From NCBI GenBank assembly GCA_947505105.1, contig CANNKG010000011.1:1-56115 (forward strand): a stretch of 56,115 bases of DNA, written 5' to 3'. A program made the translations under genes and the position numbers. Source of the DNA: Methylococcaceae bacterium. Its GTDB lineage: Bacteria > Pseudomonadota > Gammaproteobacteria > Methylococcales > Methylomonadaceae. Shown in pieces: positions 20,271 through 55,325 of this stretch; within the stretch, counting starts at the first letter, position 1, and every line of letters starts with the position of its first letter. The notes beneath the pieces were generated by a model. That model made no database searches, had not been told where the DNA came from, and was given only the letters and a program-made list of their open reading frames with translations.

Positions 20271-20273
20271 TTG

Positions 20274-20444: not shown

Positions 20445-23231
20445 ATGCCAACCAATCCATTTATACCAAACACAACTTTTTATCCAAAAAACGCAAACGA
20501 CACGGTCCCCTTGCCGGTGCCGATTGACGTCTATCCGGCCCACAATGCAACACAGGTGCCTATTGGCTATGGTCTCCAGGTCGCTTTCGATCAGCCCATT
20601 GTGCAAGGCCGGGGTAATTTTATTATCAGCAATGGCCAAGGCGATACCCAAATAATTTCGGTCAATGACGGCAACCATGTCTTCATTTATGATAGGTCGC
20701 TTTCGATTCTTCCCCTGAAAGATTTGACGCCTGATAGCCATTATTCGGTCCAGATGGAAGCGGGTGCCTTGACCGATGTGCAAGGCCGCCCCTTGGCTGC
20801 TGTCATGGACAGTACGGCTTATAATTTCACTACCGCTGCGCCGCTTGAGATTCCAATCGATCAGGCCTCACCTGCCGTGACCTCTGTTAATTTTGGTCAG
20901 AGCAAAAATAACGACAGTAACGGTAACACCAACAATAACCTGTGGATTACCTTTGATGAGGCCATCAAGCGGGGTAGCGGGAAGATTACGCTCAGCAATG
21001 ACCAGGGGGATACTCGGGTGATTGATATGTCCGATATCAATCAGATTAATGTTAATGGAGCTAGTCTGAGCATCAATCCTGCCAAGCCGCTACTGGCAGA
21101 TAGTAGTTATCACCTCCTGGCCGACGCGGGCGTCATTACCGATCTATTTGGCAATGCCACTGCCAAGCTGACCGACCCCAATGCTTTCGTTTTTGGCGTC
21201 TATGGCGATCATCAGCCGCCGCTACTGGATGCAAGCGGTCTCTATGTCAATAATTCCGGCGTGGCGGTGACGTTTAACGAAGCAATCAAGTTCGGTTCCA
21301 GTATGCTTACGTTGATCAACAGCCAGGGTAGGCAAACCATTGATGTGCGGGATAGCCGACAGGTTCAATTCGGCGATGCTGCGCTGTTTGTAACGCCAAA
21401 CATCGGCTTGTTAGCCGGCGATCAGTATCAATTGCTATTGGAAAGCGGCATCGTCAAGGACTGGGCCGGCAATGCCTTTCAAGCGCCTGGCGGGCCCTTG
21501 ACGTTTACGGTACCGGCTCTGATACCACCCGATACCAGCGCACCTTTGGTTATCAGCACCCGTCCGACAGACGAACAAGGCCAAGTCGCGCTCGATAGCG
21601 ACATTCACTTGACTTTTGACGAGGCGGTAAATTTGACCGGCGCCGGCCATTTCATCATCAGTAACGGCCAGGACGATACGCGTAGCATTGCCGCGAATGA
21701 TAAAGCTCAGGTTCGTTATGGAACCCGCGATTATGGCGGAGGAAAAATCTTTGAAGATCGGAGTCAAGTGATCATCAATCCCGCGCAGAACCTTGTCGCC
21801 AATAGCCGCTATGTGGTTCGGATGGAGTCCGATACGGTCAAAGATATGGCGGGCAATCCGGTTGCGGCAGTCATGGATAGTCAGGCGCTGAATTTTTCGA
21901 CCCCAACGGATGCAAGCGCGCCGATTGCCTTATCCACGACACCTGCCGACAACAGTCTAAACGTGGCGGTTGATAGCGATATTACGGTAGTGTTTAACGA
22001 AGCGATTCGGGCAGGCCTCGGCAACATCACACTGTTCAATGGACAAGGCGATACCCGCGTAATTGCCTCAAACGATTCATATCAGGTAAAGTTTGACGGA
22101 ACGCAACTGACGATCAATCCGTCTGAAGACTTACTCGCTGGCGTTTCTTATTCGGTGCAGGCCGATGCCGGGGCAATAGTCGATTTAGCGGGCAATCCAT
22201 TTGGCGCGGTGACCGATCCGGGCGCTTTCAATTTCACTACCGCTCCGGATACTCGCGTGCCGAATTTCTTATTTTATGGAGAATACTTTTCTGAGTCGCT
22301 CGGCACGCAGGTGATTCAGCTCAATTTTAATGAAGGGCTGAAACTCGGTACAGGTAATCTTATCCTAAGTAACGATCAAGGCGATGTCCGGACGATTGCG
22401 GTGACTGACGACCGTCAGGTCAACATTTTGGGATCAAGCTATCAAAGCAAGGTCGTGGAGATTACGCCGATACCGGCGTTGCTGCCTGAGAGTCGCTATA
22501 GCCTGAAAATCGAACCGGGTGCATTCAGCGACAATTCTGGCAATGCATTTGCAGGTATTCAGGATTCGACAACGATCGGCTTTACTCCGTCATTGCCACC
22601 TTCATCAACGCCTGATCTGACGGCGCCTGTCCTCGAAAGTTCTTATCTGGATAGTGCTGGCGTTTTGAGATTATATTTTAGCGAAACGATAAAAACCGGT
22701 AGCGGACACCTTAACTTGACCAATGATGCGAACGATAGCCGGGTGATCGACATCCATGACTCAAGCCAAGTAGTGATTGATGGACTAATCATCACTATTA
22801 ATCCAAACCCAGGCCTCACCGGAGGAAAAGTTTATACCGCCCAATTGGACAGCGGACTGGTGACCGATGGTAGCGGTAATGCCTATCAGGGGGAAGGAAT
22901 CGTTACCTTCGAAGCATCGTTCAAACCCGCCGCGAATCAAGCGGTCCAGGAAATTAATCACGGCGGTACGCAAGGTGTCTACGATAACGGGGATGTGGTG
23001 ATGTTTAATTTTAACGGGCCAGCGCATTGGCAAGGGGCTTTATGGCAACAGCATCAAGCAGGCGATAGCCTGCGCCTTGATGGTGATTACCCCGTGCAAT
23101 TCAGCCAGGATAGCCTGTCGGCATCGATTACCTTGACCGAAACCAGTCAGTTCGCCCACGGCGATATCATCAGGTTTACCGGCATCAGTGGCGAAGCGGG
23201 GGATTTTCATGAGGTAGCGTTTACGTTGTGA
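20445..23231 (+). CDS. Large repeat protein with seven Big_5-like Ig domains (copy B)
   Basis: The 928-residue paralogue of copy A matches it from MPTNPF/MPTKPF through the same C-terminal segment (EINHGGTQGVYD ... FTGISGEAGDFHEVAFTL). The seven repeats are in the same order. The start is ATG 20445 with AGGAG nine bases upstream; the open frame further upstream belongs to the pseudogene. Sequence after the stop also resembles that after copy A (CATCGC.CAA.GCGCC), so the duplication extended beyond the gene. The likely role is surface or secreted adhesion or matrix. This is inference from Ig-like repeats alone. Confidence 0.78.
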   Translation: MPTNPFIPNTTFYPKNANDTVPLPVPIDVYPAHNATQVPIGYGLQVAFDQPIVQGRGNFIISNGQGDTQIISVNDGNHVFIYDRSLSILPLKDLTPDSHYSVQMEAGALTDVQGRPLAAVMDSTAYNFTTAAPLEIPIDQASPAVTSVNFGQSKNNDSNGNTNNNLWITFDEAIKRGSGKITLSNDQGDTRVIDMSDINQINVNGASLSINPAKPLLADSSYHLLADAGVITDLFGNATAKLTDPNAFVFGVYGDHQPPLLDASGLYVNNSGVAVTFNEAIKFGSSMLTLINSQGRQTIDVRDSRQVQFGDAALFVTPNIGLLAGDQYQLLLESGIVKDWAGNAFQAPGGPLTFTVPALIPPDTSAPLVISTRPTDEQGQVALDSDIHLTFDEAVNLTGAGHFIISNGQDDTRSIAANDKAQVRYGTRDYGGGKIFEDRSQVIINPAQNLVANSRYVVRMESDTVKDMAGNPVAAVMDSQALNFSTPTDASAPIALSTTPADNSLNVAVDSDITVVFNEAIRAGLGNITLFNGQGDTRVIASNDSYQVKFDGTQLTINPSEDLLAGVSYSVQADAGAIVDLAGNPFGAVTDPGAFNFTTAPDTRVPNFLFYGEYFSESLGTQVIQLNFNEGLKLGTGNLILSNDQGDVRTIAVTDDRQVNILGSSYQSKVVEITPIPALLPESRYSLKIEPGAFSDNSGNAFAGIQDSTTIGFTPSLPPSSTPDLTAPVLESSYLDSAGVLRLYFSETIKTGSGHLNLTNDANDSRVIDIHDSSQVVIDGLIITINPNPGLTGGKVYTAQLDSGLVTDGSGNAYQGEGIVTFEASFKPAANQAVQEINHGGTQGVYDNGDVVMFNFNGPAHWQGALWQQHQAGDSLRLDGDYPVQFSQDSLSASITLTETSQFAHGDIIRFTGISGEAGDFHEVAFTL

Positions 23232-41091: not shown

Positions 41092-42624
41092 TCATTCACC
41101 GAGGGACGACTTAATAGCATTGGTATGGGGATTGATATGCCGCAACCAAGCTTCAGCGGCATGTTGTGTAGTATCTAAAATAAGCCTTGGGCACAAGCCG
41201 ACGGCAATGACCAATAGTGTGGGTAATGCGAGAACCGCAAGTTCCCGAGGCAATAAGTCCTGGGTTTTGGCGACCGGTGCATGCACGACCGGACCCAAAA
41301 AAGCGCGGCGCGTAAACGACAACATATAAGCAGCGTTTAAAATTGCGCCAATTAACGCGATAATCCCCAAGGCAGGATTGTTAAACAAGGTGCCTAGAAT
41401 CAGTAATAACTCGGCTGGAAAACCGCTGGTACCCGGCATGCCGATACTCGCGAGCATCAACACAAAATAAACACTGGTCAGGCGCGGCATGACTTTGGCT
41501 AAGCCCCCCAAATGGATTGCCTCGGTGGTTCCTAAGCGTTGTTGAATAAAGCCTGAAATCAGCATCAAGGCACTTGCAATACACGTAAAATTAAATAATT
41601 GCAGTAATGCGCCCTGTATTCCCTGAAGGTTGCCTGAAGCAAGCCCCATCATGACTAAACCGACATGACTTATGCTGGCGAATGCTAATAAACGGCGGAA
41701 ATTGGTCTGATGCAGCGCAATTAGCGCGGCATATAGCAAGGTGATCGCGCCTAGTATACTCAGGAGTTCCAAATATTGAGTAGCCGCGGTTGGCGCGAAG
41801 GGCACCGCAAAACGAATAATGCCGTACAGGCCAAGTTTTAAGCCGGTCAACAGGGCGGTTATTTGAGCAGGGCCTTCGAGAGCTACGGTCGGTAACCAAG
41901 TATGTAAAGGCACAATGGGCGCTTTGATCGCAAAACCAAGCAACAGTAAGCCAAATACCCACGGCTGCCAAGGCGCGGGTAATTCGGTGTTCAATAAAAC
42001 CGGAAAATCGAAGAGCATCGTCTGAGCAGTATCGTTACCAGTAACCGGGCCATGTTTCAGTGCCAAAATCAGAATCGCAAATAATAGCGGTACTCCGCCT
42101 GCCAGCATCGATAGCGTATATTTCATCGCTGCGCTGCGTCGCTGAGCGCCGATGCCCCACAAACTGATCAAGAAGAACAGCGGCGGCAGGGTCAGTTCCC
42201 AAAATAAGAAGAACAGCATCATATCGAGCGCCGAAAATATGCCGAGCGTGGCGCTCTCCAAAGCCAGCAATAGCGCAAAATAAAGGCGTGGCAGGGTCTT
42301 GATCGAATTCCAGCTGGCGATGATCGACAGTAAGGTCAGTAGCGCCGTCATCGGAAGAAACAGTACCGAGATGCCGTCGATGCCCACTAAAAACTCAATG
42401 TGCATGCCAGGAATCCAAGCATAACGCTCAACGAATTGAAACTCTGCGCCTTGCAGTCCATCAAAATCTATAAAAATACCCAAGGTAATTAAACACTCCA
42501 AACCGGCGAAGATGACCGCTAAAATTCTGGCACGCCGGTCATTGTTGCTTAGGCCAACGATAAAGGCGCCGAGTAACGGTAGCCAGAGCATCATGCTCAA
42601 TAACGGAAACTGCGCGTTAATCAT
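41092..42624 (-). CDS. NuoM-like proton-translocating subunit (third)
   Basis: The 510-residue antiporter-like membrane protein has about 14 helices. Conserved charged residues are present: the TM5 Glu in FWELTLPP, the TM7 Lys in AIKAPIVPLHTWLP, the TM8 Lys in LLTGLKLGLYG and the TM12 Glu in GMPGTSGFPAE. So it can still form a proton channel. ATG 42624 is one base after the previous stop; a longer start at 42717 would overlap the upstream gene. It is the last gene of the leftward nuoM-dabA-dabB-nuoM-nuoM operon and probably supplies a proton path for carbon uptake. Confidence 0.85.
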   Translation of the reverse strand: MINAQFPLLSMMLWLPLLGAFIVGLSNNDRRARILAVIFAGLECLITLGIFIDFDGLQGAEFQFVERYAWIPGMHIEFLVGIDGISVLFLPMTALLTLLSIIASWNSIKTLPRLYFALLLALESATLGIFSALDMMLFFLFWELTLPPLFFLISLWGIGAQRRSAAMKYTLSMLAGGVPLLFAILILALKHGPVTGNDTAQTMLFDFPVLLNTELPAPWQPWVFGLLLLGFAIKAPIVPLHTWLPTVALEGPAQITALLTGLKLGLYGIIRFAVPFAPTAATQYLELLSILGAITLLYAALIALHQTNFRRLLAFASISHVGLVMMGLASGNLQGIQGALLQLFNFTCIASALMLISGFIQQRLGTTEAIHLGGLAKVMPRLTSVYFVLMLASIGMPGTSGFPAELLLILGTLFNNPALGIIALIGAILNAAYMLSFTRRAFLGPVVHAPVAKTQDLLPRELAVLALPTLLVIAVGLCPRLILDTTQHAAEAWLRHINPHTNAIKSSLGE

Positions 42625-42625
42625 G

Positions 42626-44191
42626 TTATTCAACCTGTTGATGGGACTCTGAACTGGGGTGATCCGGGAGTGGTTGCGGTCCGAGAATCGGATAATGTTT
42701 GCCGATCGTGGCGGCATCCTGGTCGATAATATTTAACCAAGGCGTTGTATAAAAGCCGATCCCGATCAGTAGGCCGCAGATCACTAACGTAATCATGCGT
42801 TCCGTGACCACCGGGTGATAGAGGCTATTAATCGGTTGTAGGGCGCGATGTCTCGCTGTGATAAATAATTGTTGAAAAGCGCGTAATAAAAATGCCGCTG
42901 CTAAGACGTTGCCGACTAAAATCGCAATCGCAATCCACCAGCCATCGCGTTCGATAATGCCTTCCAGCAGCAAGTGAGCCGCATCGAAGCCGGGTGTGCC
43001 GGGCATGACCATGGTGCTGAGCGCCGAAATCAAAAATAACAAGGCGATGGTCGAATTACTGTCGAATAAGCCGCCCAGTCTTGGAATATAGGCGGTACGG
43101 GTGCGCTCATAAATCAGGCCGACACTGAACAACATCCCCGCTGTCGCCAGACCATAGGCGATGCACAGCAGCAAGCCGCCCTCAAGGCCAAAATCGTTAA
43201 AACAAAACATGCCGATGACCAGCATGCCGGTATGGCTGAGGACAGCGAAGGCGAGCAGGCGGCGAATATTAATTTGCAACAAGGCAAGCAGGGCGCCGTA
43301 AAAAATACTCAGAATACCCAGAATGGCGACGAATCCGGCCCAGGCTTCAGCGACCTCCGGGACTAAGGGTAAAATAAACCGAATCACCCCATAAATGCTC
43401 AGTTTTAAACCCACCAGAAAAATCGCGGCGCTGGCGACGGTGCCATGTTCCATCAGCAAAGGCAGCCAGCCATGGAACGGAAATAGCGGCATACGGATTG
43501 CCAGACCCAAAAACAGCAATAAGAAAATTAGCGTTTCATGCGGCAAGTGGGCATTGTGTTGTTTGAGGGTCAGCCAGTCGAAGCTAAAGGTTTGATTTAC
43601 TTCGGATAAACCGAGAGCTAGCAGTACGAAACCCGCTAAAAGCATTACCAAGCTACTCAGCCAATATTGCATGACTTTGGCGAGAATCCAGCGTCGATTT
43701 TGACCGGTCCCTGCATAAAGCGTCAATAAAATCATCGGGACACATTCAAGTAGCGACCAGAGCCAAAATTGCAACAGGTTCAACGCGACAAACGCGCCGA
43801 TTAGAATACCTTCATAGGCCATCAGACAGGCAATAAAGATTCGGTCAGTCACATGGCGCGTGATCAGGGTGTAAATCAAGGCGAGCAAGGTCAAGGTAGC
43901 CAGCAGTGGCACAAACAAGATATTTGCGCCATCGACCCCGACGCTGTAACTGAGACCTGCAAAATGCAATTGTTCGACCAAATGTAAACCGGGCATGCCG
44001 GCATTAAAGACACTCAATAGATAGATGCTCAACAGCAAGGTCAAAATTGCCCCGCCAAAAGCCAAGCGTAAGGCGTTGAGGGCCGAGCGGGTCAATAAAA
44101 TCGCACCCATAGTGACTAGCGGCACCAAGGTTAGCGTCGTGAGCAAGGGAAATGAAGTCGATTCGGACCAGTGACTGATCAAGGTAGTCAT
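42626..44191 (-). CDS. Divergent NuoM-like subunit (second)
   Basis: The 521-residue membrane protein of the NuoM/NuoN/MrpD fold keeps the TM5 Glu (LLECVPM) and the TM8 Lys (VGLKLSIYG). But the TM7 Lys is Arg233 in AIRMPLFPFHGWLP, the (D/A)H.EAP loop reads LMEHGTVAS, and the TM12 Glu position is Ala405 in GTPGFDAAH. So its proton channel may be disabled or modified, or it may be structural. It begins 7 bp after the dabB-like stop and is contiguous with the third NuoM. Confidence 0.82.
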   Translation of the reverse strand: MTTLISHWSESTSFPLLTTLTLVPLVTMGAILLTRSALNALRLAFGGAILTLLLSIYLLSVFNAGMPGLHLVEQLHFAGLSYSVGVDGANILFVPLLATLTLLALIYTLITRHVTDRIFIACLMAYEGILIGAFVALNLLQFWLWSLLECVPMILLTLYAGTGQNRRWILAKVMQYWLSSLVMLLAGFVLLALGLSEVNQTFSFDWLTLKQHNAHLPHETLIFLLLFLGLAIRMPLFPFHGWLPLLMEHGTVASAAIFLVGLKLSIYGVIRFILPLVPEVAEAWAGFVAILGILSIFYGALLALLQINIRRLLAFAVLSHTGMLVIGMFCFNDFGLEGGLLLCIAYGLATAGMLFSVGLIYERTRTAYIPRLGGLFDSNSTIALLFLISALSTMVMPGTPGFDAAHLLLEGIIERDGWWIAIAILVGNVLAAAFLLRAFQQLFITARHRALQPINSLYHPVVTERMITLVICGLLIGIGFYTTPWLNIIDQDAATIGKHYPILGPQPLPDHPSSESHQQVE

Positions 44192-44198
44192 GAAAACC

Positions 44199-45761
44199 TC
44201 AAAAGGAACTCAGCAGCAAGATAAACACAAATAACACTAGATTGCGGGGTCTTAAGATTAGTCGTTCGAATTTATGCGCAGTATGGCCGAGTTGACGGCC
44301 AATCGTGATCGGACTCTTGCGATGATTGCGCAATACAAAACGAGCTTCGAACCATTGGAACAGGGTCGCGCACCATTGGGTGAGTTTACCCGCCAGACCG
44401 CTACCTTGGGCAAATTCATCGGCATCATTGTCAAGACGCGCACCGAGTTTTTGCTCTCTGAATTGGGCGAGTGATGAGATTCGACGTATGGCGGGTAATG
44501 GCGCGCCAATCAGTCGATCCAGAATGTGTTCGTCAAAATTGTTCAGATCGTGCGCCAATCCGCGTACCGGTTTGATGATCGCCCAATCGATCAAAGCCTC
44601 CAGCCAGCCACGTTGCAACGAAGCGACATAAGCCCATTGCAGTTGTGCCAGTTTGGGTGAGACCGGTTTGATCGGGCTTCCATGCACCTTATGCATCAAT
44701 GAAGGTGCGGTCAATAGCAGATAACTACGCACCACTGCGTGCGCGGCGAGGTGCCAGAGCGCCAGTTGCCAAAAGCCTAAGCCGCATTCGAGAAACATCA
44801 AGCCGACTTGGGCAGAGGTGGCGTATACCAACGAACTTTTGATGTCGGTTTGGGTTAAGCCTACCAAGAAACTATAAACGGCAGTGATCAAGCCGATCGC
44901 AGCGATAATCAACATCATCAGCGGGGCTTGCTCGAACAGTGGTTGCAATAACCAGAGCAGATAAACGCCTGCATGCACCATAATTCCACCATAGAAGATT
45001 GAACTGGATGGCGTCGGTCCTTCCATCGCGCGTGCCAACCAATGCGTAAACGGCCACTGTGCGGATTTCGCACAGGCGGCGATAGTGAAGCTGAACGCCA
45101 GGGCGTTACGTTGAGCGCTGGTTAAATGACCGATGTTTTCTTGAAGGATTTGCCACTCAAGACTCCCTAACCAGCTATAACTCAAGCCAAGGCCGAAAAT
45201 AAAGCCGGCATCGCCGATGCGGTTGGTGAGGAACACGCGAGTTGCGTTAGTGACGGCCATCGGGCGTTGCTGAAAATAGCCAATGAGCAGGTAGGAACTT
45301 AAACCGGCCAATTCCCAGCCGATAAAAGTGCCGACCATATTGCTCGACAGCACTAATAACAACATCGCTGCGGCAAACAGGTTCAAAATGGCAAAGAAAC
45401 GATGAAAGCCGGGTTCTCGGTGCATGTAGTTAATCGAAAACTGCATCACTATGAATAGCAACAGTGCAAACAGACACGTAAGCGCGCTAGGCAAGGGTGA
45501 ATTGAACAATTGCAGCGAAATTTTAAAATCCGGCAGTTCGAGCCAGTGCCATACCGGCGGAGTGTCGAGTGAATGATTGTGCAGGGCGTTGAGGAGCGTT
45601 GCGAGTGCGAGCAAACAAACCAGACCGATACTGCTCATGGTCAGTTTGACGCTAAAGCGCTCAGTTTCGACGCCGGTCAGCCAGCCTGAAAAATTGCCAA
45701 AGGCGATCAGCACAGCGGCAGTCAGCGGCAATAGAGGAATGAAGGCGATGACTCCATTCAT
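44199..45761 (-). CDS. dabB: DabB-like NuoL-family subunit
   Basis: The 520-residue membrane protein of the NuoL branch has GWELAGLSSYLLIGYF, CAKSAQWPFTHWLARAMEGPTPSSS and MVHAGVYL. It is shorter than NuoL (about 613) because the long lateral helix and last membrane helix are missing, which is typical of DabB. DabB pairs with DabA to take up CO2 and retain it as bicarbonate using a cation gradient. The C-terminal tail is basic and polar. It follows dabA after 43 bp. The assignment to DabB instead of a Mrp-type subunit depends on the DabA neighbour. Confidence 0.85.
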   Translation of the reverse strand: MNGVIAFIPLLPLTAAVLIAFGNFSGWLTGVETERFSVKLTMSSIGLVCLLALATLLNALHNHSLDTPPVWHWLELPDFKISLQLFNSPLPSALTCLFALLLFIVMQFSINYMHREPGFHRFFAILNLFAAAMLLLVLSSNMVGTFIGWELAGLSSYLLIGYFQQRPMAVTNATRVFLTNRIGDAGFIFGLGLSYSWLGSLEWQILQENIGHLTSAQRNALAFSFTIAACAKSAQWPFTHWLARAMEGPTPSSSIFYGGIMVHAGVYLLWLLQPLFEQAPLMMLIIAAIGLITAVYSFLVGLTQTDIKSSLVYATSAQVGLMFLECGLGFWQLALWHLAAHAVVRSYLLLTAPSLMHKVHGSPIKPVSPKLAQLQWAYVASLQRGWLEALIDWAIIKPVRGLAHDLNNFDEHILDRLIGAPLPAIRRISSLAQFREQKLGARLDNDADEFAQGSGLAGKLTQWCATLFQWFEARFVLRNHRKSPITIGRQLGHTAHKFERLILRPRNLVLFVFILLLSSF

Positions 45762-45804
45762 AGCTTAAGACCCTCTTCAAAAGTGGTATTGAATTGCCCA
45801 GCCA

Positions 45805-48800
45805 TCAGCCTAGTTCCGGTTGTTCGATCAGCGCCGGTGATAGCGGGACGCTCTGGCCGCGGTAACATTCGATGGAATTGGCGTAGGTCAAGATGGATGT
45901 CAGCTCCGCCTGCCATAATACGAAGCCTTGGCCGCGCTCAAACACATAGAGCTCGCCACTTTCGGGATCTTTGGCGGCTAATTGAACCCAGCCGCCGCCA
46001 ACTAATTCCCGAATTCCTGGTTGATCGGCATAAATACGTTCAAGGACTCGGGGCTTAGCTTCGACCAACATTAATAGGCGCATTGGCTCATGGATTTCGA
46101 CCATTTGGAGGGGCAGTCCGGTACGCAGATCACTGCCGGTTCCTTCCATAACGCCAAACAGACCGGTGATGTTGTGCGGAATTTTGGTACTGCAGCCAAA
46201 ACGCTCGTTATCAATGGTTGAGAAATAATATTCCAGATTAATACCGGCTCCGACGGGACCTACAGTCAGCAAGATATTTTCGAGTAGCTGACCTTCGGGG
46301 TCTTGGGTTGGATCATAGGAAATCAGAAATGCGCGCCGATCCAGAAACGCGCCTTGGGTGACTGAGCGCCGACCGACCACTGCAGAGGCATTGGTTGCAT
46401 GACCATATTCGGGTCTAACTTGGCTCAAGTCCTGGGCACGATCTATCACATGCTGCATCGCCGCAGGCGGCGAATCAGGATGGCGGGCTGAATAAAATCT
46501 ACGACAGCGTTCGTGGGCAGAAGCCTCGGTCGCTTTAACGAGAGTATGTTTGAGGGTTTTTAATGCCTCTTGCATATTCAACGGCACTTGATCTTCATCG
46601 AACCAGACAATCGCGTCGCTGCTGGTATCGTGTTCGGCGCCGATAAACCAGCAATCATTGGGAACGACAATAGCGCGTTCGCTCAGCAAAATTCTGATCT
46701 CGGGACGATTGACGATTGCGGCAAACAGCCGCGCATTGGCGCCGCCGCGTCTGCCACTACACGCTCCGCAATCGTGTGCGGCTTCGTGGGGGTTGTTTTG
46801 GCTGGTCGAGCCGTGCGCCATAAAGCAGACGATGGGTGCAAAACCGCTGGTCAGGCCGATATTTCGCAAGAATCCAGCAACGCGGTTGACTTGTTCCTCA
46901 TCGCTGAAATTAGGATGTATCAATGTTTCGGAACGACGCTGGCTCTCTTTGAAGCGCAATTCCGTCGGCACTTGAACGACAATGCGCTGCTTGAGCGTTT
47001 TACTGAAGCGATTGACCAAGCTCGGAAAAAAGCTTTTGGCCAATTGTCCAGCCAATAGCCAAGGGGCGAGTAACAGGGTATTAATCAGAGAGCGCCATAA
47101 TTCACGGCGCAGACTTTGGTTGATTAAGTAGGCCACGTTTAAATAAAGTTTTCGGCCTTTCTGGTGTGCGGCTAAAATAGCTTCTATTCCGGAGTGCGGA
47201 ATTTCGTCGATTTCATGGCTTGGCGCGACGCCGGCAGGGCACAAGCCTACCCGATGATCGTCATCAAGGCCCTGATAATGGATGGGTAGACCAAAAAAAC
47301 CGGCCGCGCCAAAAGTTTCAAATATGGGATTCAATTCTTCAAGATGGCGGCGAATGCTCTCTTCTCGTTCATCAATACAGAAGATGATCTGAGCTTCCGG
47401 ACGAGTGTCTCGTTTTGCCCAGCGTCCACGTAGATGGTTTGCCCGAATAATTTGCAAAAATTCTTCGCGGTAGTGCCGCTCATAAGCTTCAAGCCATACT
47501 TGCGCACGGATAGTTGGCCCAAACTCATCAAGCAACGTCAACATTCCAAGCAAATCCCGCTGTGATAACTTATCGATCTGGGCTGCGCCTATACCTAAAT
47601 GCTGCGCTAACAGCAACAAACGCCAACCCGCGTTGTAAACTGTTAAAGTCTCGTGCTGATAACCGATGGGGCTGGCTTCCCAGGTGTGAATTAGCTCGGC
47701 CAAAGTTTGCCAGTTCGGTTGGTTGTGCCATTCGGACCTAGCTTGATTGATTAATTGTTCGGCCTTTTGAGTGAGATATTCGGGTAATCGAGTACGATAA
47801 AGACCGCGGCGGACCTTAAATTCAGCCGGATGTTTGGTGAAGTAGTGTTGCAGACTGGTAAATTTAGCGTCGATTTTCCAGATATCATGGCTAACTTGAT
47901 GCAGCCAGAGCCTATCTAGCGTTATACGAATAGCTAAATAATCGATCAGCAGTTGCGGTGGCGGCTGAGCTGTTTTGGCGGAGCCTGTGTCAGGCTCGCT
48001 ATGTGTATGACGTTCATTTGCTGGCGTATAATGTGGATGATGTTGTCGCCAGTTTAATAGGCCTGACCAACCCGGTAATTCAAGCGCTAGGCGTTGCAGA
48101 TAACCAGGCCAGCGTATTTCGGGCAGTTCAAAATATTGCAGTTGTTGAATGATGGTATCGAGCGGGTCTTCCGGAAGCGATTCCAGGACTTGTTGCCAGT
48201 CGGTCAGTTCATGCAAAAATAAACTGGCGTCGAAGCGCGAACTGAGCCGCCAAACGCGATAAAGGCCAAGTGTCTGGCGTTCCGGCATAACCCAGGGAGC
48301 AACGCCTTCATCGAGCGCTGAAGCGCAAAATTTTATCAGATGCGAGCGAACTTGTTCCATGATGTCAATGCCGCTGAGTGCCATCACAAGGCCACGCAAA
48401 CTCAGCTGGTTGCCGACTTCATCGAATAACTCTGCGACTGTTCGCGCTGCACTTTGATTGAGTTCCGAGAGGGGGATGGAGCTATCCGCATCTTGTTGCT
48501 CAAGCCAATCTTGGGCTTGTTCATGCGATAAATCGAGCATGTTTTCAGGATGAAGAGCTGGCTGAGCCAAGCCCAATTTACTTAGTAGACTATGCCATAA
48601 TTGTTGGACGACTTCGGTTTCGCTGCCTAATGTCAATAGTTGTTGCTTTTGAGCTTCGAGCACGTTAGCTTGCAATGATTCCAGGGCTTTCAATTCATTG
48701 ACCTGCCAGTGCCATTGGTTAGGCGTTAGGCTCGATAAATCATATAAGAGGGCGATGCGGTAAAGCTCGCGACGAGTAAGGCTTGAGTCTAGATCATGAG

Positions 48801-49092
48801 CAATTGGTTGATTGGGCTTTAGGGCTTCACATTTATCTAGCGCGCTGTCTAGATCTTCATCATTGATGCGGCCCTGCCAATAGAATTGCCGATTTTTGAG
48901 CTCCGGAAGATAGCCGCAAATGCCGGTCAATAATTCAAATTCAGCAAGCGCCTTTTCAAACGGTAAATGTTGAAAACCATGCAGGGTATTATGATGCACG
49001 AAATCCTGAATCGGGGCTTGTCCGGGCAGAACATGATTCAAATGTTCCAAGGCAGCCAAGACCTGCTCGCGTAATTGATTTGAAATTTGCAT
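45805..49092 (-). CDS. dabA: DabA (UPF0753/DUF2309) inorganic-carbon uptake protein
   Basis: The 1095-residue DUF2309 protein has the beta-carbonic-anhydrase-like zinc site of DabA: Cys572 and Asp574 in FCIDERE, His760 in AHGSTSQNN and Cys775 in DCGACSG. His and Cys are 15 residues apart, as in Halothiobacillus DabA. The N-terminal half (residues 20-400) is helical and starts VQDFVHHNTLHGFQ-like (IQDFVHHNTLHGFQHLPF). DabA with DabB converts CO2 to trapped bicarbonate in the cytosol. The operon contains three more antiporter-like subunits, which is richer than the minimal dabAB pair. Confidence 0.92.
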   Translation of the reverse strand: MQISNQLREQVLAALEHLNHVLPGQAPIQDFVHHNTLHGFQHLPFEKALAEFELLTGICGYLPELKNRQFYWQGRINDEDLDSALDKCEALKPNQPIAHDLDSSLTRRELYRIALLYDLSSLTPNQWHWQVNELKALESLQANVLEAQKQQLLTLGSETEVVQQLWHSLLSKLGLAQPALHPENMLDLSHEQAQDWLEQQDADSSIPLSELNQSAARTVAELFDEVGNQLSLRGLVMALSGIDIMEQVRSHLIKFCASALDEGVAPWVMPERQTLGLYRVWRLSSRFDASLFLHELTDWQQVLESLPEDPLDTIIQQLQYFELPEIRWPGYLQRLALELPGWSGLLNWRQHHPHYTPANERHTHSEPDTGSAKTAQPPPQLLIDYLAIRITLDRLWLHQVSHDIWKIDAKFTSLQHYFTKHPAEFKVRRGLYRTRLPEYLTQKAEQLINQARSEWHNQPNWQTLAELIHTWEASPIGYQHETLTVYNAGWRLLLLAQHLGIGAAQIDKLSQRDLLGMLTLLDEFGPTIRAQVWLEAYERHYREEFLQIIRANHLRGRWAKRDTRPEAQIIFCIDEREESIRRHLEELNPIFETFGAAGFFGLPIHYQGLDDDHRVGLCPAGVAPSHEIDEIPHSGIEAILAAHQKGRKLYLNVAYLINQSLRRELWRSLINTLLLAPWLLAGQLAKSFFPSLVNRFSKTLKQRIVVQVPTELRFKESQRRSETLIHPNFSDEEQVNRVAGFLRNIGLTSGFAPIVCFMAHGSTSQNNPHEAAHDCGACSGRRGGANARLFAAIVNRPEIRILLSERAIVVPNDCWFIGAEHDTSSDAIVWFDEDQVPLNMQEALKTLKHTLVKATEASAHERCRRFYSARHPDSPPAAMQHVIDRAQDLSQVRPEYGHATNASAVVGRRSVTQGAFLDRRAFLISYDPTQDPEGQLLENILLTVGPVGAGINLEYYFSTIDNERFGCSTKIPHNITGLFGVMEGTGSDLRTGLPLQMVEIHEPMRLLMLVEAKPRVLERIYADQPGIRELVGGGWVQLAAKDPESGELYVFERGQGFVLWQAELTSILTYANSIECYRGQSVPLSPALIEQPELG

Positions 49093-49105
49093 TGCTTAAA
49101 CTCTG

Positions 49106-50575
49106 CTACATGCGTTTTTGAATCACGTCGTTCAATTGCGTGATACTGGTGGCGGATAAGTCGATTAAGGGAGCAGGTATTAAACCAAAACCAACGATGG
49201 CAACTACCAGGATGGCGGCGGCGATCAATTCGAAATTATTTAAGTCGGCGATTTGCTGCATCTGCGGTTTGACAGGGCCGGTGAATAGTAAGCCCATGGT
49301 GCGCAGCGCATACGAGGCACATATCAGTATGCTGAGACTGAAAAATACCATCAAGCCCCCCCATTGCTGAAAGCCACCGCTCAGCGTATGTAATTCGGCG
49401 ACAAAACCGATTGATCCGGGTAAGCCCATTGCTGCCAGTAGGGTTAAGGTCATAAATACTGCAAAACGCGGCATGACCTGAACCAGCGAGCTATAATCCT
49501 GAATATTGCGGGTATGGGTGCGTTCGTATAGCAGGCCGACCAAGAGAAATAACGCGCCTGCGATTAAGCCGTGGGCAGTCATTTGCAAGACCGCGCCGGT
49601 TATGCCCATTTCATTCAGACTGGCAATGCCCAGTAAGACAATGCCCATGTGACTGACCGACGAGTAGGCGATCATCGCTTTCAAATCGCTTTGCCGCCAC
49701 GCGAGCAGACCGCCATAGAGCATGCCGAATAAAGCTAGAAAAGTCAGCATCGGTTGCAGCAGCAGAGTGGCTTCAGGCAACATCACCACCGCGCGCAGCA
49801 AGCCATAAGCGCCCATTTTGAGCAAGATACCGGAGAGTAGAATGCTGATCGGGCTTGGGGCTTCGACGTGGGCAAGCGGCAGCCAGCCATGCAAGGGGAA
49901 GATCGGCATCTTGACCCCAAAACCAATAATGAAACCCAGCAGCACTAAAACCTGTTCCATGCGAGGCATGCCCTGTGCGGCTTGATGCATCGAGGTCATT
50001 AGCGAACCGCTTTGTTGTAAATCGTATTGACTGATTGCAAGCAAGCTGAGCAGCATAAAGATCGAACCACCCATTGTATAGAGCACGAAATTCAAACTCG
50101 CCGCATGGCGTCTGGCACCGCCCCAGCGATCAATCAAGAAAAACAGCGGGATCAGGGTGACTTCCCAGAAAATGTAAAACAACGCCCAGTCCTGAGCCAA
50201 AAACACGCCGAGCATGCCAAATTCCAACAGGAGCAGGCAGATGTGATAACCCTTGATGCTGCTATTAATCGAAAAGGAAGCGAGTACCGCAATTGAGCTG
50301 AGCAAGGTGGCCAGCACCAATAGCGGTAAGGAAAGGCCGTCGACCCCAAGCGCATAAGCACTGCCGAGTACCGGATTCAAGGGATAATATTCGGTAAACT
50401 GTAAATTCGCGTCATGCTGGTTATAGTGAGCAACAATCACGCAACTTAATACGAAGGTATAGCCGGTCAGGATTTGCGAAATCCAGCGGATTAACACGGT
50501 ATGTTGATTGGATAAAAATACCAGCACCAAGACACCTACTGCCGGGGTCCACAACAGTAAACTGAGAATACCCAT
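49106..50575 (-). CDS. NuoM-like proton-translocating subunit (first)
   Basis: The 489-residue protein is the most canonical NuoM of the three. The TM5 Glu is in FWEVTLIPLFFLIDRWGG, the TM7 Lys in FGVKMPIFPLHGWLPLAHVEAPSP, the TM8 Lys in SGILLKMGAYGLLRA and the TM12 Glu in LPGSIGFVAELH. It is the first gene in the leftward cluster, 13 bp before dabA. A terminator behind the beta-carbonic anhydrase separates it from that gene. It is not part of a nuoA-N cluster, since no other complex I genes are present. Confidence 0.88.
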   Translation of the reverse strand: MGILSLLLWTPAVGVLVLVFLSNQHTVLIRWISQILTGYTFVLSCVIVAHYNQHDANLQFTEYYPLNPVLGSAYALGVDGLSLPLLVLATLLSSIAVLASFSINSSIKGYHICLLLLEFGMLGVFLAQDWALFYIFWEVTLIPLFFLIDRWGGARRHAASLNFVLYTMGGSIFMLLSLLAISQYDLQQSGSLMTSMHQAAQGMPRMEQVLVLLGFIIGFGVKMPIFPLHGWLPLAHVEAPSPISILLSGILLKMGAYGLLRAVVMLPEATLLLQPMLTFLALFGMLYGGLLAWRQSDLKAMIAYSSVSHMGIVLLGIASLNEMGITGAVLQMTAHGLIAGALFLLVGLLYERTHTRNIQDYSSLVQVMPRFAVFMTLTLLAAMGLPGSIGFVAELHTLSGGFQQWGGLMVFFSLSILICASYALRTMGLLFTGPVKPQMQQIADLNNFELIAAAILVVAIVGFGLIPAPLIDLSATSITQLNDVIQKRM

Positions 50576-50641
50576 CGCTTAGTGTTCCGTATGATGGTTA
50601 AGAAGGCGCTGCAATAAGATCAAATTCGGCAATCCAGGAGT

Positions 50642-50680
50642 TAATAAAAAACAAATGTGGGCAACGCAGTTCCGCCCACC
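50642..50680 (-). terminator. Intrinsic terminator after beta-carbonic anhydrase gene
   Basis: Read on the minus strand, GTGGGC-GGAACTGCGTT-GCCCAC is followed by ATTTGTTTTTTATT. A 6-bp stem with a T-rich tail lies between the carbonic anhydrase and the nuoM-dab operon, so the two are probably separate transcription units. Confidence 0.65.
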
Positions 50681-50710
50681 ATTATGTACAATAAGGGATG
50701 CAGAGTTATT

Positions 50711-50870
50711 CAAAATACCATTTTTGTAACTATTCATCTGCTACTCTCGCACATTGCAACCCCAACCTTCCCCTTATCAGGGGAGGGAGTTAAAGAATGA
50801 TCTCCTCCCCCTGCCAAGGGGGAGGCTGGGAGGGGGGTGAGTGTTGCAATCTTTATGCTTGCGGTATTCC
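50711..50870. repeat. MITE-like 160-bp repeat, copy 2
   Basis: This is homologous in inverse orientation to 38002-38163, with identical TTCAAAATACCATTTTTG at the left end (50709-50726). The hairpins CCCCTTATCAGGGGAGGG and CTCCCCCTGCCAAGGGGGAG are better paired than in copy 1. The right end GCGGTATTCC is the diverged terminus and overlaps the last codons and stop of the carbonic anhydrase gene. Confidence 0.7.
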
Positions 50871-51506
50871 TAAGTTTAGCGGAATTTCATAAAAATCGAC
50901 ACGCCCGGTTTCGACTTCATACATGCCGCCGATAATTGCGATTTCATCATTCTTGAGCATGTCAATCACCACTAAACTGCGTTCAGTAATTTGTTGCATG
51001 GCTAATTCTACGTTCAGTTTGGCGACTTTTTCGACGAATTCAGCGTTTTTGGAGTTGCGTTCGTTGGTAGTGGTGGTTTCAGCATCCACGGCCATTTCAA
51101 TTTTATTAAGTAGTCCTGTTAAATTTCCTAGACGCACATGATCGCATGCTCCTCTGACTGCGCCACAACGAGTATGACCAAGCACAACTACGATTTTAGC
51201 ACCGGCAATTTTGCAGGCAAACTCCATGCTGCCGAGAATATCGTCATTAATGATGTTGCCTGCAACTCTACAACTAAAAATATCGCCCAGACCTTGGTCG
51301 AAAATCAGTTCTGCCGAGGTTCTGGAGTCGATACAACTCAGAATGAATGCAAACGGATGTTGGCTTTCGGAAGTTTGGTTGACTTGTTCGAGCAAGTTTC
51401 TATTGGCTTTAAGGTTGTTGATAAAGCGATCATTGCCTTTCTTCAAGATATCAAGCGCAGTTGACGGCGTAATCGCCTCTTGCATTTCTTTGGTAAGTGT
51501 CTTCAT
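50853..51506 (-). CDS. Beta-class carbonic anhydrase
   Basis: The 217-residue enzyme interconverts CO2 and bicarbonate. Zinc ligands are Cys58, His111 and Cys114 (in SCIDSR and GHTRCGAV), and the Asp60-Arg62 dyad is intact. It has no signal peptide, so it is cytoplasmic. It follows the SulP gene by 39 bp in a presumed operon, an arrangement that suggests coupled bicarbonate transport. Its C terminus (GIPQA, stop) is formed by the end of the mobile-looking repeat, so it may differ slightly from relatives there. Confidence 0.94.
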   Translation of the reverse strand: MKTLTKEMQEAITPSTALDILKKGNDRFINNLKANRNLLEQVNQTSESQHPFAFILSCIDSRTSAELIFDQGLGDIFSCRVAGNIINDDILGSMEFACKIAGAKIVVVLGHTRCGAVRGACDHVRLGNLTGLLNKIEMAVDAETTTTNERNSKNAEFVEKVAKLNVELAMQQITERSLVVIDMLKNDEIAIIGGMYEVETGRVDFYEIPLNLGIPQA

Positions 51507-51545: not shown

Positions 51546-53135
51546 TTACTTAGAGGCTTCATTAATGATAATGAGTGATTCATGTTTAGGGATCACCTCC
51601 TTGCCGTAGACATCAATCAGTTCAATGATGATATTGTCATCAGCGGCTGAGGCCTTAAAATCCTCAATCAATTCGAAAATATCATGATCGATAAATCGGG
51701 TCTTGCTGGCATCAATAATGACGCGGCTGTTGGTTTGAATTAGTAAAATAAATTTGCGCAGTAATGCTTTATTCAAAAACGATACGTCCTTATTAAGAAC
51801 GATGGTGTATTTGTTGCCATCCTGAATCATCGTAATCGCAGCATCATAGTTGGTTTTTATGACAAAAAATAGACCGATAACAACCCCGACGACCATGCCT
51901 TTTAGTAAGTCGGTCGAAATGATCGCAATCACGGTAATGACGAACGGATAAAACTGGCTTTTACCTTTTTTGTAATATTCGATAAACAACGCAGGTTTTG
52001 CCAACTTATAACCGGTTTGCAATAAAATTGCCGCCAAACAAGCCAATGGAATCGTATTGAGGTAATCTGGCAGATACATAACACTTAACAACAAACAGAG
52101 TCCGTGGATAAAACAGGACATTTTGGTTTGGCCGCCATAGTTAATATTGGCTGCACTTCGGACAATCACCGCAGTAATCGGGATGCCCCCCAACATGCCG
52201 GAGATAATATTTCCTGCGCCTTGGGCTTTGAGTTCTCTATTGGTGGGTGCAACCCGTTTTAAAGGATCAAGTTTGTCGACCGCTTCAAGGCTTAGCAAAG
52301 TTTCAAGACTGGCGATGATCGCAATCGTAAAGGCAATACTATAAATGCTTGGATTACTCAGATAATTAAAATCAGGTAGCATGAAACTGTTGAAAAAATC
52401 GGACGCTTGGGCAAAGATGGGTAAGTTAACCATGTGTTCAGTGCTTATTGACCATGCTGGTGCATGCGTTGATGCCCATAGTTGAAAACCGATACCCCAC
52501 ATGACAACGACCAAAGGACCTGGAATTAACTTAGCCAACTTGAGTTTTTTAAACCAGGAAAGCTCCCATACGATTAGAATCAGTAAAGATACGATGCTGA
52601 TCACGATTGAACCATGAGAAACACCTTGAAGTGCATCGAATAACTCACCAAAACTTGAGCTTGCGGTTTCTTTCATATAGCTTTCGTCCCCTTCGTAACT
52701 TCCATGGAAGCCGATGGCGTGCGGAATTTGTTTAATGATCAGAATCAAGCCGATCGCTGCCAACATGCCTTTAATGACCGCTGCGGGAAAAAATGCCCCA
52801 ATAATACCGGCGCGTAAATAGCCAAGTATCAGTTGTATGACGCCGGCAAGCACGCAGGCGACCAGAAAACCTTGGTAATTGCCGATTTTTTCTATCGCAT
52901 TAAAGACGATAACGGTTAAGCCGGCAGCGGGACCAGATACACTTAATTGAGAACCACTTAACCAGGAGACGATGATGCCGCCGACTAAGCCTGCGATTAA
53001 TCCTGAAAATAACGGCGCGCCTGACGCCATAGCGATGCCTAAGCAAAGCGGTAAAGCCACTAAAAAAACGACAATCCCGGCAGGTAAATCATCTTTTAAA
53101 TGATGTAGATAAAATTGTACATGTTTATGAATCAT
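51546..53135 (-). CDS. SulP-family anion transporter, bicarbonate candidate
   Basis: The 529-residue SLC26/SulP protein has about 12-14 membrane helices starting ALPLCLGIAMASGAPLF and a C-terminal STAS domain (about 435-525, RVIIDASKTRFIDHD). Members carry sulfate, bicarbonate or dicarboxylates. Placement directly before a beta-carbonic anhydrase points to bicarbonate (BicA-like), but sequence alone does not separate this from sulfate. There are no sulfate-assimilation genes nearby. It is transcribed leftwards, divergent from the two-component pair. Confidence 0.85.
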   Translation of the reverse strand: MIHKHVQFYLHHLKDDLPAGIVVFLVALPLCLGIAMASGAPLFSGLIAGLVGGIIVSWLSGSQLSVSGPAAGLTVIVFNAIEKIGNYQGFLVACVLAGVIQLILGYLRAGIIGAFFPAAVIKGMLAAIGLILIIKQIPHAIGFHGSYEGDESYMKETASSSFGELFDALQGVSHGSIVISIVSLLILIVWELSWFKKLKLAKLIPGPLVVVMWGIGFQLWASTHAPAWSISTEHMVNLPIFAQASDFFNSFMLPDFNYLSNPSIYSIAFTIAIIASLETLLSLEAVDKLDPLKRVAPTNRELKAQGAGNIISGMLGGIPITAVIVRSAANINYGGQTKMSCFIHGLCLLLSVMYLPDYLNTIPLACLAAILLQTGYKLAKPALFIEYYKKGKSQFYPFVITVIAIISTDLLKGMVVGVVIGLFFVIKTNYDAAITMIQDGNKYTIVLNKDVSFLNKALLRKFILLIQTNSRVIIDASKTRFIDHDIFELIEDFKASAADDNIIIELIDVYGKEVIPKHESLIIINEASK

Positions 53136-53290: not shown

Positions 53291-53965
53291 ATGAATATTT
53301 TATTGATTGAGGATGATGCAATATTGGGCGATGGTTTGAGTTATACCTTGCGCAATAACGGCTATTATATCAGTGTAGCGACGACTGGAAATTACGCTGA
53401 GCGACTGTTGATGGCACAAGATTTTGATTTGATCGTTCTGGATCTTGGATTGCCTGATATCGATGGTTTGGAATTATTGCGCCGAATTCGGCGGCGCAAG
53501 GTGCCGATTCCGATTTTGATTTTAACCGCGCGTGACGGTGTTAATGATCGAGTCGATGGTATCGAGCAGGGGGCTGATGATTATATGTCCAAGCCTTTCG
53601 AGCTGAGAGAGTTGGAAGCAAGAATTAATGCATTGATTCGACGCTGCTATGGCGGGTTTGATAATAAAATCCAGTTGGGTCGATTGGTTCTGGATACTCA
53701 TAGTCATCAAGTGTTAGTTGATGATCAGCCGCAACAGCTTTCGGCACGCGAATATGCCCTGCTCGAAATCCTGATGCTACAAAACGGGAAAGTGGTGACC
53801 AAAGATCGTATCGCTCAGCGACTTGCCCAAGAAAATGAGGCGCTCACCGATAATGCGGTCGAAATTTATATTCATCGATTGCGTAAACGTATTGAGCCTT
53901 ATGCTATTCAGATTCGAACCATCCGAGGTCTTGGTTATTTGATTGAGTGTATCAATGAGACTTAA
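53291..53965 (+). CDS. OmpR-family response regulator
   Basis: The 224-residue regulator has the phospho-acceptor Asp51 in LIVLDLGLPDIDG, the acidic pair EDD at 7-9, the conserved Lys101 in MSKPFE, and a winged-helix DNA-binding domain ending RTIRGLGYLIE. It belongs to the QseB/PmrA/TctD group. It overlaps the kinase gene by 11 bp. Target genes are unknown; the divergent SulP-carbonic anhydrase operon is the nearest candidate, by position only. Confidence 0.92.
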   Translation: MNILLIEDDAILGDGLSYTLRNNGYYISVATTGNYAERLLMAQDFDLIVLDLGLPDIDGLELLRRIRRRKVPIPILILTARDGVNDRVDGIEQGADDYMSKPFELRELEARINALIRRCYGGFDNKIQLGRLVLDTHSHQVLVDDQPQQLSAREYALLEILMLQNGKVVTKDRIAQRLAQENEALTDNAVEIYIHRLRKRIEPYAIQIRTIRGLGYLIECINET

Positions 53966-55325
53966 GATCCCCAGTCTTAAAGCAAAATTACTGTTGCAAT
54001 TGGCGATTCCATTGCTTTTATTTATGACGATCGAAAGTGTCTTGTCGTATTTTGTGACGCTGCATTATGTCAATGGCGCGTATGATCGATGGTTGCTTGA
54101 TTCGGCTCGATCACTCGCGCAGGAAATTAAAGTCAGGAATGGTTCGGTAGCGGTCGAGTTACCCACCGCAGCATTGGAAATCTTCAAATGGGATGATCAG
54201 GATAAAACCTATTTCAAAATCGTATCGGTTCAACATGGGCTCATCGCGGGCGATAAGGGGGTGCCGGATATTTCGAATCCCGACATCGATTGGAGTCAGC
54301 CGGTTTTCTTCAATAACGAAATGTATGGCGAATCAGTCAGAGTGGTCGCAATGTCGCTCACGCGTGAAACTACTCCGGAGAAATTTTATGTGTCGGTGGC
54401 CGAAACCTTAAATAAACGTCGGAGCATGATGCATGATATTTTATTTGCCGATTTGTTTCCTCAAAGCTTTTTGCTGTTAGGTATCGGTCTTTATTTGCTG
54501 ACCGGCATTCAACGAGGACTCAAGCCTTTACATAATTTAGCCGATGAAATTGCTAAACGGTCTTCAAGAGATTTGCGTCCTATTCCCAATACCCATGTCG
54601 TGCTTGAAGTGCAATCCTTGATTCATACGATTAACGATTTATTTGGTCGATTGAATCTCGCCATCGGGACGCAAGAGCGCTTTATTTCGAATGCGGCCCA
54701 TCAGCTACGTACACCGCTGGCCGGACTCAAGCTGCAAGCCGAGCGGGCTATGCGTGAACAGGATATCGAGGCGATGTTGCCTGCTTTGTTAAATATTCAA
54801 AATAGCGCTGATCGACTCTCTCATTTGACGTCACAGCTATTGGTCTTAGCAAGGTCCGAGTCTAATCAACATAGCTATGAGTTACTACCCCTCGATCTCG
54901 GTAAGCTTACGCGCGATATCTGCATCGAATGGGTGCCGAAAGCACTTGAGCGCAAGATAGAGTTAACTTTTGAGAGTTCGGATTACCCGATTATGATTCT
55001 GGCAGATCAAGTGTTATTCAGCGAATTGATTGCCAATCTATTGAATAATGCGGTGACTTATGGCTTTGAACATGGCAATATTTGGATTGAGGTGCGGAGC
55101 TGGCCGCATATTCAACTGATAGTTGCGGACGATGGCCCTGGGATTCCTGAACACGAAATAGACAAAATCTTGGAGCGCTTTTATCGCCTTCCTGGGACTG
55201 CCGGTATTGGCTGTGGTTTAGGTTTGGCGATTGTCAAAGAAATCGCTGATTTGCATCATGCACAATTAACTTTGGAACGGAGCTCTCATGAAGGCGGACT
55301 TCGAATTACCTTAACTTTTCATTAA
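53955..55325 (+). CDS. Sensor histidine kinase (TctE/QseC-like)
   Basis: The 456-residue kinase (start ATG 53955, overlapping the regulator stop) has two membrane helices (residues about 12-35 and 155-180). They flank a periplasmic domain of about 120 residues that fits the 2CSK_N-like domain of TctE. HAMP-like residues follow, then His249 in NAAHQLRTPLAGLK. The ATPase has NLLNNAVTYG, VADDGPGIPEHE and GCGLGLAIVKEI. The ligand is unknown: the 2CSK_N family includes carboxylate sensors, so a carboxylate or bicarbonate-type cue is conceivable but unproven. Confidence 0.9.
   Translation: MRLKIPSLKAKLLLQLAIPLLLFMTIESVLSYFVTLHYVNGAYDRWLLDSARSLAQEIKVRNGSVAVELPTAALEIFKWDDQDKTYFKIVSVQHGLIAGDKGVPDISNPDIDWSQPVFFNNEMYGESVRVVAMSLTRETTPEKFYVSVAETLNKRRSMMHDILFADLFPQSFLLLGIGLYLLTGIQRGLKPLHNLADEIAKRSSRDLRPIPNTHVVLEVQSLIHTINDLFGRLNLAIGTQERFISNAAHQLRTPLAGLKLQAERAMREQDIEAMLPALLNIQNSADRLSHLTSQLLVLARSESNQHSYELLPLDLGKLTRDICIEWVPKALERKIELTFESSDYPIMILADQVLFSELIANLLNNAVTYGFEHGNIWIEVRSWPHIQLIVADDGPGIPEHEIDKILERFYRLPGTAGIGCGLGLAIVKEIADLHHAQLTLERSSHEGGLRITLTFH

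Follow-up and report, generated by a model that had tools for sequence, protein, structure and literature searches.

A conserved operon of long DabA, DabB and three NuoM-like genes in a Methylococcaceae genome: a candidate enlarged inorganic carbon accumulator

DAB2 of Halothiobacillus neapolitanus consists of DabA2 and DabB2, and its latent zinc site is proposed to be opened by protons passing through DabB2 and the finger of DabA2, in which Glu444 is essential (PMC13144422). In NDH-1MS, charged residues are lost from NdhF3, a proposed CO2 channel, at least three protons being thought to be moved per CO2 (PMC6981117). In the 2017 COGNAT paper SulP and NuoM genes were described as frequent companions of ybcC (dabA) upstream of nuoL, and the number of ions moved was suggested to rise with the number of membrane subunits (PMC5700660). 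The locus analyzed here is a five-gene operon on contig CANNKG010000011.1 (assembly GCA_947505105.1) of a Methylococcaceae bacterium. The contig, 56,115 nucleotides in length and part of a 5.1 Mb genome, was taken in its entirety and is referred to as the window.

The five genes occupy the minus strand from 50575 to 41092 and are transcribed in the order NuoM1-DabA-DabB-NuoM2-NuoM3, with intergenic gaps of 13, 43, 7 and 1 bp, respectively. This arrangement had been proposed from the sequence alone as nuoM-dabA-nuoL(dabB)-nuoM-nuoM with gaps of 1-43 bp, and was borne out by the coordinates of the open reading frames (ORFs) and by Pfam and NCBIfam matches. NuoM1, DabB, NuoM2 and NuoM3 each matched PF00361 with E values from 8e-42 to 1e-68. 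The three NuoM proteins all exceeded the cut-off of TIGR01972 (NuoM), NuoM3 scoring 451.3 bits on the ORF starting at 42717; this longer ORF overlaps NuoM2, and the ATG at 42624 fits better as the start. The top NCBIfam matches of DabB were NuoL models, every one below cut-off. Based on the comparisons given below, the products of the five genes probably assemble into one membrane complex, an enlarged form of the DabAB-type accumulator of dissolved inorganic carbon.

Named genomes were scanned with long DabA and the best 80 of 576 confirmed relatives were examined; these included Methylobacter, Methylomonas, Nitrosomonas, Nitrosospira, Nitrosovibrio, Candidatus Nitrotoga and others. The five genes were complete and in identical order in 58 of the 80 loci, so the order is not due to chance. 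Most of the remaining loci without a complete set were interrupted at the end of a contig. PF10070 was carried by 69 of 398 sampled Pseudomonadota genomes, and the neighbourhoods in these and in the named relatives were of two kinds: a short DabA with one DabB, and a long DabA in the order NuoM1-DabA-DabB-NuoM2-NuoM3. All four antiporter-like genes (the quartet) were adjacent in 94 of the 100 long-DabA loci with adequate flank, and NuoM was absent from 39 of the 40 short-DabA loci, the fortieth (L130) adjoining a five-gene cluster. The survey of genomes suggested with the original prediction therefore returned the same gene order. In this tally two duplicate DabA were dropped, L041 was assigned to the long type by hand, and six ambiguous loci were set aside (L156, L159, L166, L167 and L169, all five by hand on account of an over-extended ORF, and the truncated L139). 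A further 27 long and nine short loci with insufficient flank were left out, some of the nine being cut long DabA. A search of plasmids with DabA gave 123 records, in all of which less than 80% of the query was covered.

Of the six long-DabA exceptions, five were split loci with the antiporter genes elsewhere in the genome. Long DabA without a quartet was tried as a class (L052, L114, L143, L147, L174 and the contig-cut L190) and rejected, the genes being present on other contigs. In genome G024, NuoM1-DabA and DabB-NuoM2-NuoM3 were on separate contigs, while in G197 DabA stood by itself and the quartet, in the order NuoM1-NuoM3-DabB-NuoM2, was elsewhere, in addition to a complex I NuoL-NuoM-NuoN set. 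Genomes G438, G439 and G440 each held all five genes; G440, a single metagenome-assembled genome (L147, L120), had two complete sets, one intact and one split across contigs. The NuoM1 of G201 was a 262-residue piece at a contig end. At L128 (G441), DabB-NuoM2-NuoM3 were elsewhere and NuoM1 was not found; DabA begins at base 19 of the contig, and the missing NuoM1 is likely due to the contig cut. No adequately assembled long-DabA genome lacking the quartet was found among the surveyed loci and the 398 genomes. The sixth exception (L046:8802-17278) was of another kind, with a DabA of 1108 residues outside the long clade, a NuoL-like DabB of 683 residues and two NuoM-like proteins that lie near complex I NuoM and have each of the four key residues; this cluster is apparently independent of the five-gene class.

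Two other unusual arrangements were noted. At L215:110-5719 a DabA of 995 residues is followed by a DabB of 440 residues and an antiporter-like protein of 433 residues with a very long branch; this locus was left out of the long-DabA count because the tree places its DabA outside the long clade. At L056:2438-5584 and L057:5128-8157, both of one genus, long DabA is without the zinc ligands Cys351 (Ser) and Cys539, His524 is lost in one of them, and NuoM2 of L057 is split into two ORFs. The five-gene set at these two loci seems to be decaying beside an intact short DabA-DabB pair.

The association was also apparent from a profile of NuoM2, which gave matches of 399-732 bits in 36 of the 398 genomes, the next match scoring 333 bits. 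These were exactly the 36 genomes with long-clade DabA, and neither was found in the other 362. They span 12 families, 17 of the genomes being in one family and seven in another.

Trees were obtained by quick searches, with values of the SH-like approximate likelihood ratio test (SH-aLRT) as the only branch support. NuoM1, NuoM2, NuoM3 and DabB each formed one clade (SH-aLRT 100, 100, 99 and 100, respectively), separate from complex I NuoL, NuoM and NuoN of the tested genomes. NuoM1 adjoins complex I NuoM (91) and is the closest to it of the four antiporter-like subunits, NuoM2 and NuoM3 are sisters (96), and the DabB clade groups with short DabB (94 and 99). Long DabA, of about 1000-1150 residues, is one clade (99). 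Its sister is a clade of short DabA in which dabA precedes dabB, referred to as the two-gene clade. The unlinked DabA of G197 and G201 groups with that of L177 and L186 (support 87), and the quartet genes of G197 group with the same two loci (support 84 to 97).

The larger complex-I-like module of the original prediction is well supported by comparative genomics, because the gene set is invariant, the co-occurrence of long DabA and NuoM2 is exact, the set is kept when unlinked and the host is without complex I (see below). The powering of CO2 trapping by protons is extrapolated from DAB2 and complex I.

For the analysis of residues, proteins were assigned by best BLAST match, and ORFs that were truncated at the end of a contig or fell outside set lengths were dropped. 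In E. coli NuoM the relevant positions are the ion pair E144/K234, the central K265, the bridging H322 and the distal E407 (PMC9271201). In NuoM1, E144, K234, H322 and E407 were each present in 117 of 117 sequences and K265 in 116, while all five residues were present in 99 of 99 NuoM3. Three NuoM-like subunits had been predicted; all three are there, but they are not equivalent. NuoM2 was without an acid at position 144 (transmembrane segment 5, TM5) or at the distal position 407 in 105 of 105 sequences, Arg replaced K234 (TM7) and Lys265 (TM8) was kept in all 105, H322 was present in 80, and an invariant His406 was found in TM12. From these replacements NuoM2 is predicted to be non-pumping.

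DabB is NuoL-like in its N-terminal two thirds. Among 112 sequences E144 was present in 110, R175 in 110, D178 in 111 and K229 in 111, while Tyr replaced H254 in 110 and Arg replaced K342 in all. No residue was aligned to K399/D400 of NuoL TM12 in any of the 112, and NuoL positions 376-402 and 405-417 were missing from over 80% of them. The number of TM-like segments was 11 in the DabB of the window, 14 in DAB2-type DabB and 16 in DabB of the two-gene clade. The AlphaFold model of DabB (predicted local distance difference test, pLDDT, 71) is weak after about residue 340 and matched NuoL chains with a best Z of 45.1. The ion pair at E144 was tried as a sign of NuoM docking and ruled out: it is equally present in DabB of the two-gene clade (13 of 13) and therefore gives no evidence for such docking.

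The zinc site of the window DabA is composed of C572, D574, R576, H760 and C775 (Cys/Asp/Arg/His/Cys), residues kept in 118, 120, 120, 119 and 118 of 120 long DabA, respectively. A sequence search matched the protein to PDB 9rd0_A (E 3.9e-77). The best matches of its AlphaFold model (pLDDT 79.3) were carboxysomal and other beta-carbonic anhydrases, with Z of 8.1-8.8. Among the structural matches listed for the DabA and DabB models (library to April 2026) the DabA2 and DabB2 structures were absent, and comparison with these proteins is thus by sequence. At the position of Leu658 of DabA2, which there replaces the transition-state residue of beta-carbonic anhydrases, the window has His898; His was found there in 118 of 120 long DabA and Leu in 29 of 29 DAB2-type proteins. 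The helical finger is at about 637-688, where Leu673 takes the position of Glu444 of DAB2, given an uncertain alignment of the finger. An acid was present at this position in 42% of the 120 long DabA, versus Glu in 29 of 29 DAB2-type sequences, and no column from 638 to 704 had an acid in more than 42% of the 120, subject to the same uncertainty. In the two-gene clade Gln was found at the Glu444 position and His at 658 in 14 of 14. The loss of Glu444, the His at 658 and E144 of DabB are all shared with that clade, so they mark a wider clade rather than the five-gene set alone.

The host is very likely a gammaproteobacterial methanotroph, carrying one gene for methane/ammonia monooxygenase subunit A (PF02461, 435 bits). 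Its genome encodes six PF00361 proteins, four in the operon and two on contig C58, where the sole PF00146 (NuoH-type) protein was also found beside hydrogenase-4 genes; two neighbours there scored above the NCBIfam thresholds for subunits B and F of hydrogenase-4. Profile searches of the genome with PF00361 and PF00146 revealed no complex I. The hydrogenase-4 type cluster (L008:5797-14867) is directly preceded by a SulP homologue of 559 residues with 35% identity to the SulP of the window. In a search of the genome for RuBisCO the sole family match (C146:144-848, L038) scored 71 bits and contained two stop codons. With no good RuBisCO found in the host, a dissolved inorganic carbon pump may therefore serve other carboxylations.

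The gene set, its conservation, the co-occurrence and the residues are best read as those of a vectorial carbonic anhydrase of five subunits that is coupled to protons, an analogue of cyanobacterial NDH-1MS without redox chemistry. The physical complex and its direction, stoichiometry, subunit roles and proton coupling would be as follows. Long DabA would be a cytoplasmic, zinc-dependent, beta-carbonic anhydrase-like subunit performing one-way CO2 hydration. DabB, truncated and without the TM12 half-channel of NuoL, would anchor it at the membrane. Complete proton channels would be provided by NuoM1 and NuoM3, since DabB is without the TM12 half-channel and the DabA finger without a conserved acid, while NuoM1 and NuoM3 are intact. 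NuoM2 would act not as a pump but as a spacer, a gate, or a path for gas or anion. Protons driven inward by the protonmotive force by way of at least two antiporter-like subunits would power the conversion of CO2 into bicarbonate, at an H+/CO2 ratio above that of a two-subunit pump, and in a methanotroph the bicarbonate would feed carboxylations. DabA-DabB alone is probably insufficient in the five-gene class, as judged from the absence of the TM12 region in DabB and of Glu444 in the DabA finger and from the proton-path residues kept by NuoM1 and NuoM3. A more specific version, that NuoM1 and NuoM3 each carry one proton per CO2 and that NuoM2 is a CO2/bicarbonate conduit or one-way gate, making this a distinct class of pump, is put forward tentatively and is rather doubtful as a whole. 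NuoM2, stripped of pump residues but with an invariant Arg/Lys/His set, might then be convergent with NdhF3 of NDH-1MS.

Several points weigh against a single enlarged accumulator. Co-occurrence and operon linkage do not prove a single complex, and the 36 genomes are related, so they represent fewer than 36 independent events. The two-gene clade is also without Glu444; loss of this residue alone thus requires no NuoM partners. A two-gene-clade host with E144 in its DabB (G014) has no other PF00361 protein. The model of DabB is weak in the last third (pLDDT 31-68), and the product of an adjacent cytosolic carbonic anhydrase gene would dissipate the bicarbonate pool.

Of the rival explanations the best surviving, though an unlikely one, is that the NuoM trio forms a separate cation/proton antiporter whose extrusion of Na+ serves SulP, leaving DabA-DabB to act alone. 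A SulP gene is located upstream in the window and on the same strand in 33 of the 105 quartet loci; a BicA-type SulP near Mrp and NuoM/NuoL-like genes in Candidatus Nitrospira alkalitolerans has been proposed to be part of a Na+/bicarbonate partnership (PMC7784846); and NuoM-like proteins are homologous to MrpD. However, DabB is located between NuoM1 and NuoM2, SulP is absent from 72 of the 105 retrieved stretches while DabA and NuoM2 co-occur exactly, gaps of 1-43 bp leave no space for the small Mrp subunits, and the residues are of the NuoM type with distal Glu.

It is likewise improbable that the operon encodes an ordinary two-subunit DabA-DabB pump with the NuoM proteins as optional assembly or regulatory factors. 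Near-universal catalytic residues in NuoM1 and NuoM3 would be unexpected for dispensable factors, the quartet accompanies long DabA in every adequately assembled genome found, and DabB has fewer membrane segments than the DAB2 type, even though DAB2 functions as a heterodimer (PMC13144422) and the sister clade has a short DabA and one DabB without NuoM. Methanotrophs produce CO2 intracellularly, which would suit an outward pump, in which a favourable DabA reaction drives proton export through several subunits. The idea goes back to a 2017 suggestion, made when the function had yet to be established, of an exergonic reaction with several ions moved by as many membrane subunits (PMC5700660). Such a pump is very unlikely here, CO2 hydration yielding little energy near neutral pH and the DAB2 data favouring consumption rather than generation of protonmotive force (PMC13144422). 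Finally, displaced or spare complex I subunits, suggested by strong NuoM/NuoL similarity, are ruled out because the host is without complex I, and neither the distinct clades nor G197, with a full NuoL-M-N set besides its quartet, agrees with this explanation.

The features of the operon and its upstream neighbours are listed in Table 1.

Table 1. Coordinates and characteristics of the five-gene operon and upstream neighbours in the window
Feature	Coordinates	Strand	Characteristics
NuoM1	49106..50575	minus	489 residues, 14 TM-like segments; TIGR01972 484.7 bits (cut-off 263.8)
DabA, long type	45805..49092	minus	1095 residues; two beta-carbonic anhydrase-like domains; PF10070 E 1e-237
DabB	44199..45761	minus	520 residues, 11 TM-like segments; PF00361 and PF00662
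NuoM2	42626..44191	minus	521 residues, 14 TM-like segments; TIGR01972 274.1 bits (cut-off 263.8)
NuoM3	41092..42624	minus	510 residues from ATG 42624, 14 TM-like segments
beta-carbonic anhydrase	50853..51506	minus	upstream neighbour, outside core; PF00484, NF011765 above cut-off
SulP-family transporter (bicarbonate or sulfate)	51546..53135	minus	upstream neighbour, optional partner; PF00916

No signal peptide was evident by eye in the upstream beta-carbonic anhydrase, a same-strand homologue of which was found in three of the 105 quartet loci. The 277-bp gap between this gene and NuoM1 (50576-50852) is G/C-rich and, by eye, inverted-repeat-like, and may separate two transcripts. A PmrA/QseB-like response regulator and a histidine kinase (53291-55325) are divergent from the SulP and carbonic anhydrase genes, and similar pairs were found near the cluster in some Methylobacter loci (L045, L077, L100); the pair is possibly a CO2 or pH regulator. 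On its other flank the operon is adjoined by a DUF2569-type ORF on the opposite strand. Elsewhere in the window (16856-23231) are two large proteins of 921 and 1120 residues with six and eight matches, respectively, to the Big_5 Ig-like domain.

If the five subunits do form one proton-coupled accumulator, the two-subunit DAB2 model would be merely one of several architectures, and a multi-channel version would be widespread in methanotrophs, ammonia and nitrite oxidisers and other proteobacteria. It would offer a simple system for a question posed by complex I, namely how the work of several antiporter-like subunits is linked to a single chemical event, here redox-free and with one subunit naturally stripped of pump residues, and would be a candidate part for engineered CO2 uptake. 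Were NuoM1 and NuoM3 in fact each to carry a proton per CO2, with NuoM2 as a conduit or gate, an H+/CO2 ratio of two or more would permit CO2 trapping at low protonmotive force or high pH, in methanotrophs and nitrifiers.

With a PF10070 zinc site and an adjacent NuoL-like DabB, the set can be classed from its sequence as a DabAB-type dissolved inorganic carbon accumulation complex (DAC) in the broad sense. It shares with DAB2 (PDB 9rd0) the zinc ligands, the Asp-Arg dyad, the NuoL-like DabB and the families PF10070 and PF00361, but differs in the extra segments of long DabA at about 96-226, 417-457 and 483-520, in His898 for Leu658, in having no Glu444 equivalent, in a DabB without the TM12 region, and in four antiporter-like subunits, three of them NuoM, in this operon and its relatives, where DAB2 has one. 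The two-gene clade, from the same order of methanotrophs and sister in the DabA tree, has dabA upstream of dabB and shares the His at 658 (14 of 14) and E144 and R342 of DabB (13 of 13), but its DabA is of about 860 residues, its DabB of about 625 residues with 16 TM-like segments, and NuoM partners are absent. DAB1 of H. neapolitanus (DabA1, a small TM protein and DabB1), compared here by description, also has a longer DabA, of 1046 residues (PMC4633670), and an additional membrane protein (PMC13144422); as described in these sources it differs in having one NuoL-like subunit, with no NuoM reported.

The suggestion that the machine is under-described holds in part. Neither the fixed set of five genes nor its residue code was found described in the open-access literature, and these two appear to be new, but NuoM beside DabA was reported in 2017 and the set was partly foreseen there (PMC5700660). 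The COG3002-COG1009-COG1008 'clade C' of that paper has the same ybcC-nuoL arrangement, often with NuoM and SulP, while the section on these neighbourhoods names neither a fixed set of five genes nor classes of subunit, and gives no pattern of residues and no role in carbon uptake.

The membrane arm of complex I and Mrp antiporters contain homologous NuoL/NuoM-type subunits. Unlike complex I and hydrogenase-4, the five genes are without NuoH/J/K or redox subunits, and unlike Mrp, the small subunits MrpB, C, E, F and G are missing from the tightly spaced operon. The nearest functional parallel, by analogy, would be NDH-1MS (CupA, NdhF3, NdhD3, NdhB). It likewise has a CO2-hydrating subunit on an antiporter-like chain, and its NdhF3, like NuoM2 here, has lost charged channel residues (PMC6981117). 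It differs in being redox-driven, with NdhA/C/E/G and a peripheral arm, and in the unrelated fold of CupA (PMC6981117), the CO2 subunit of the five-gene set being a PF10070 protein with a beta-carbonic anhydrase-like structure.

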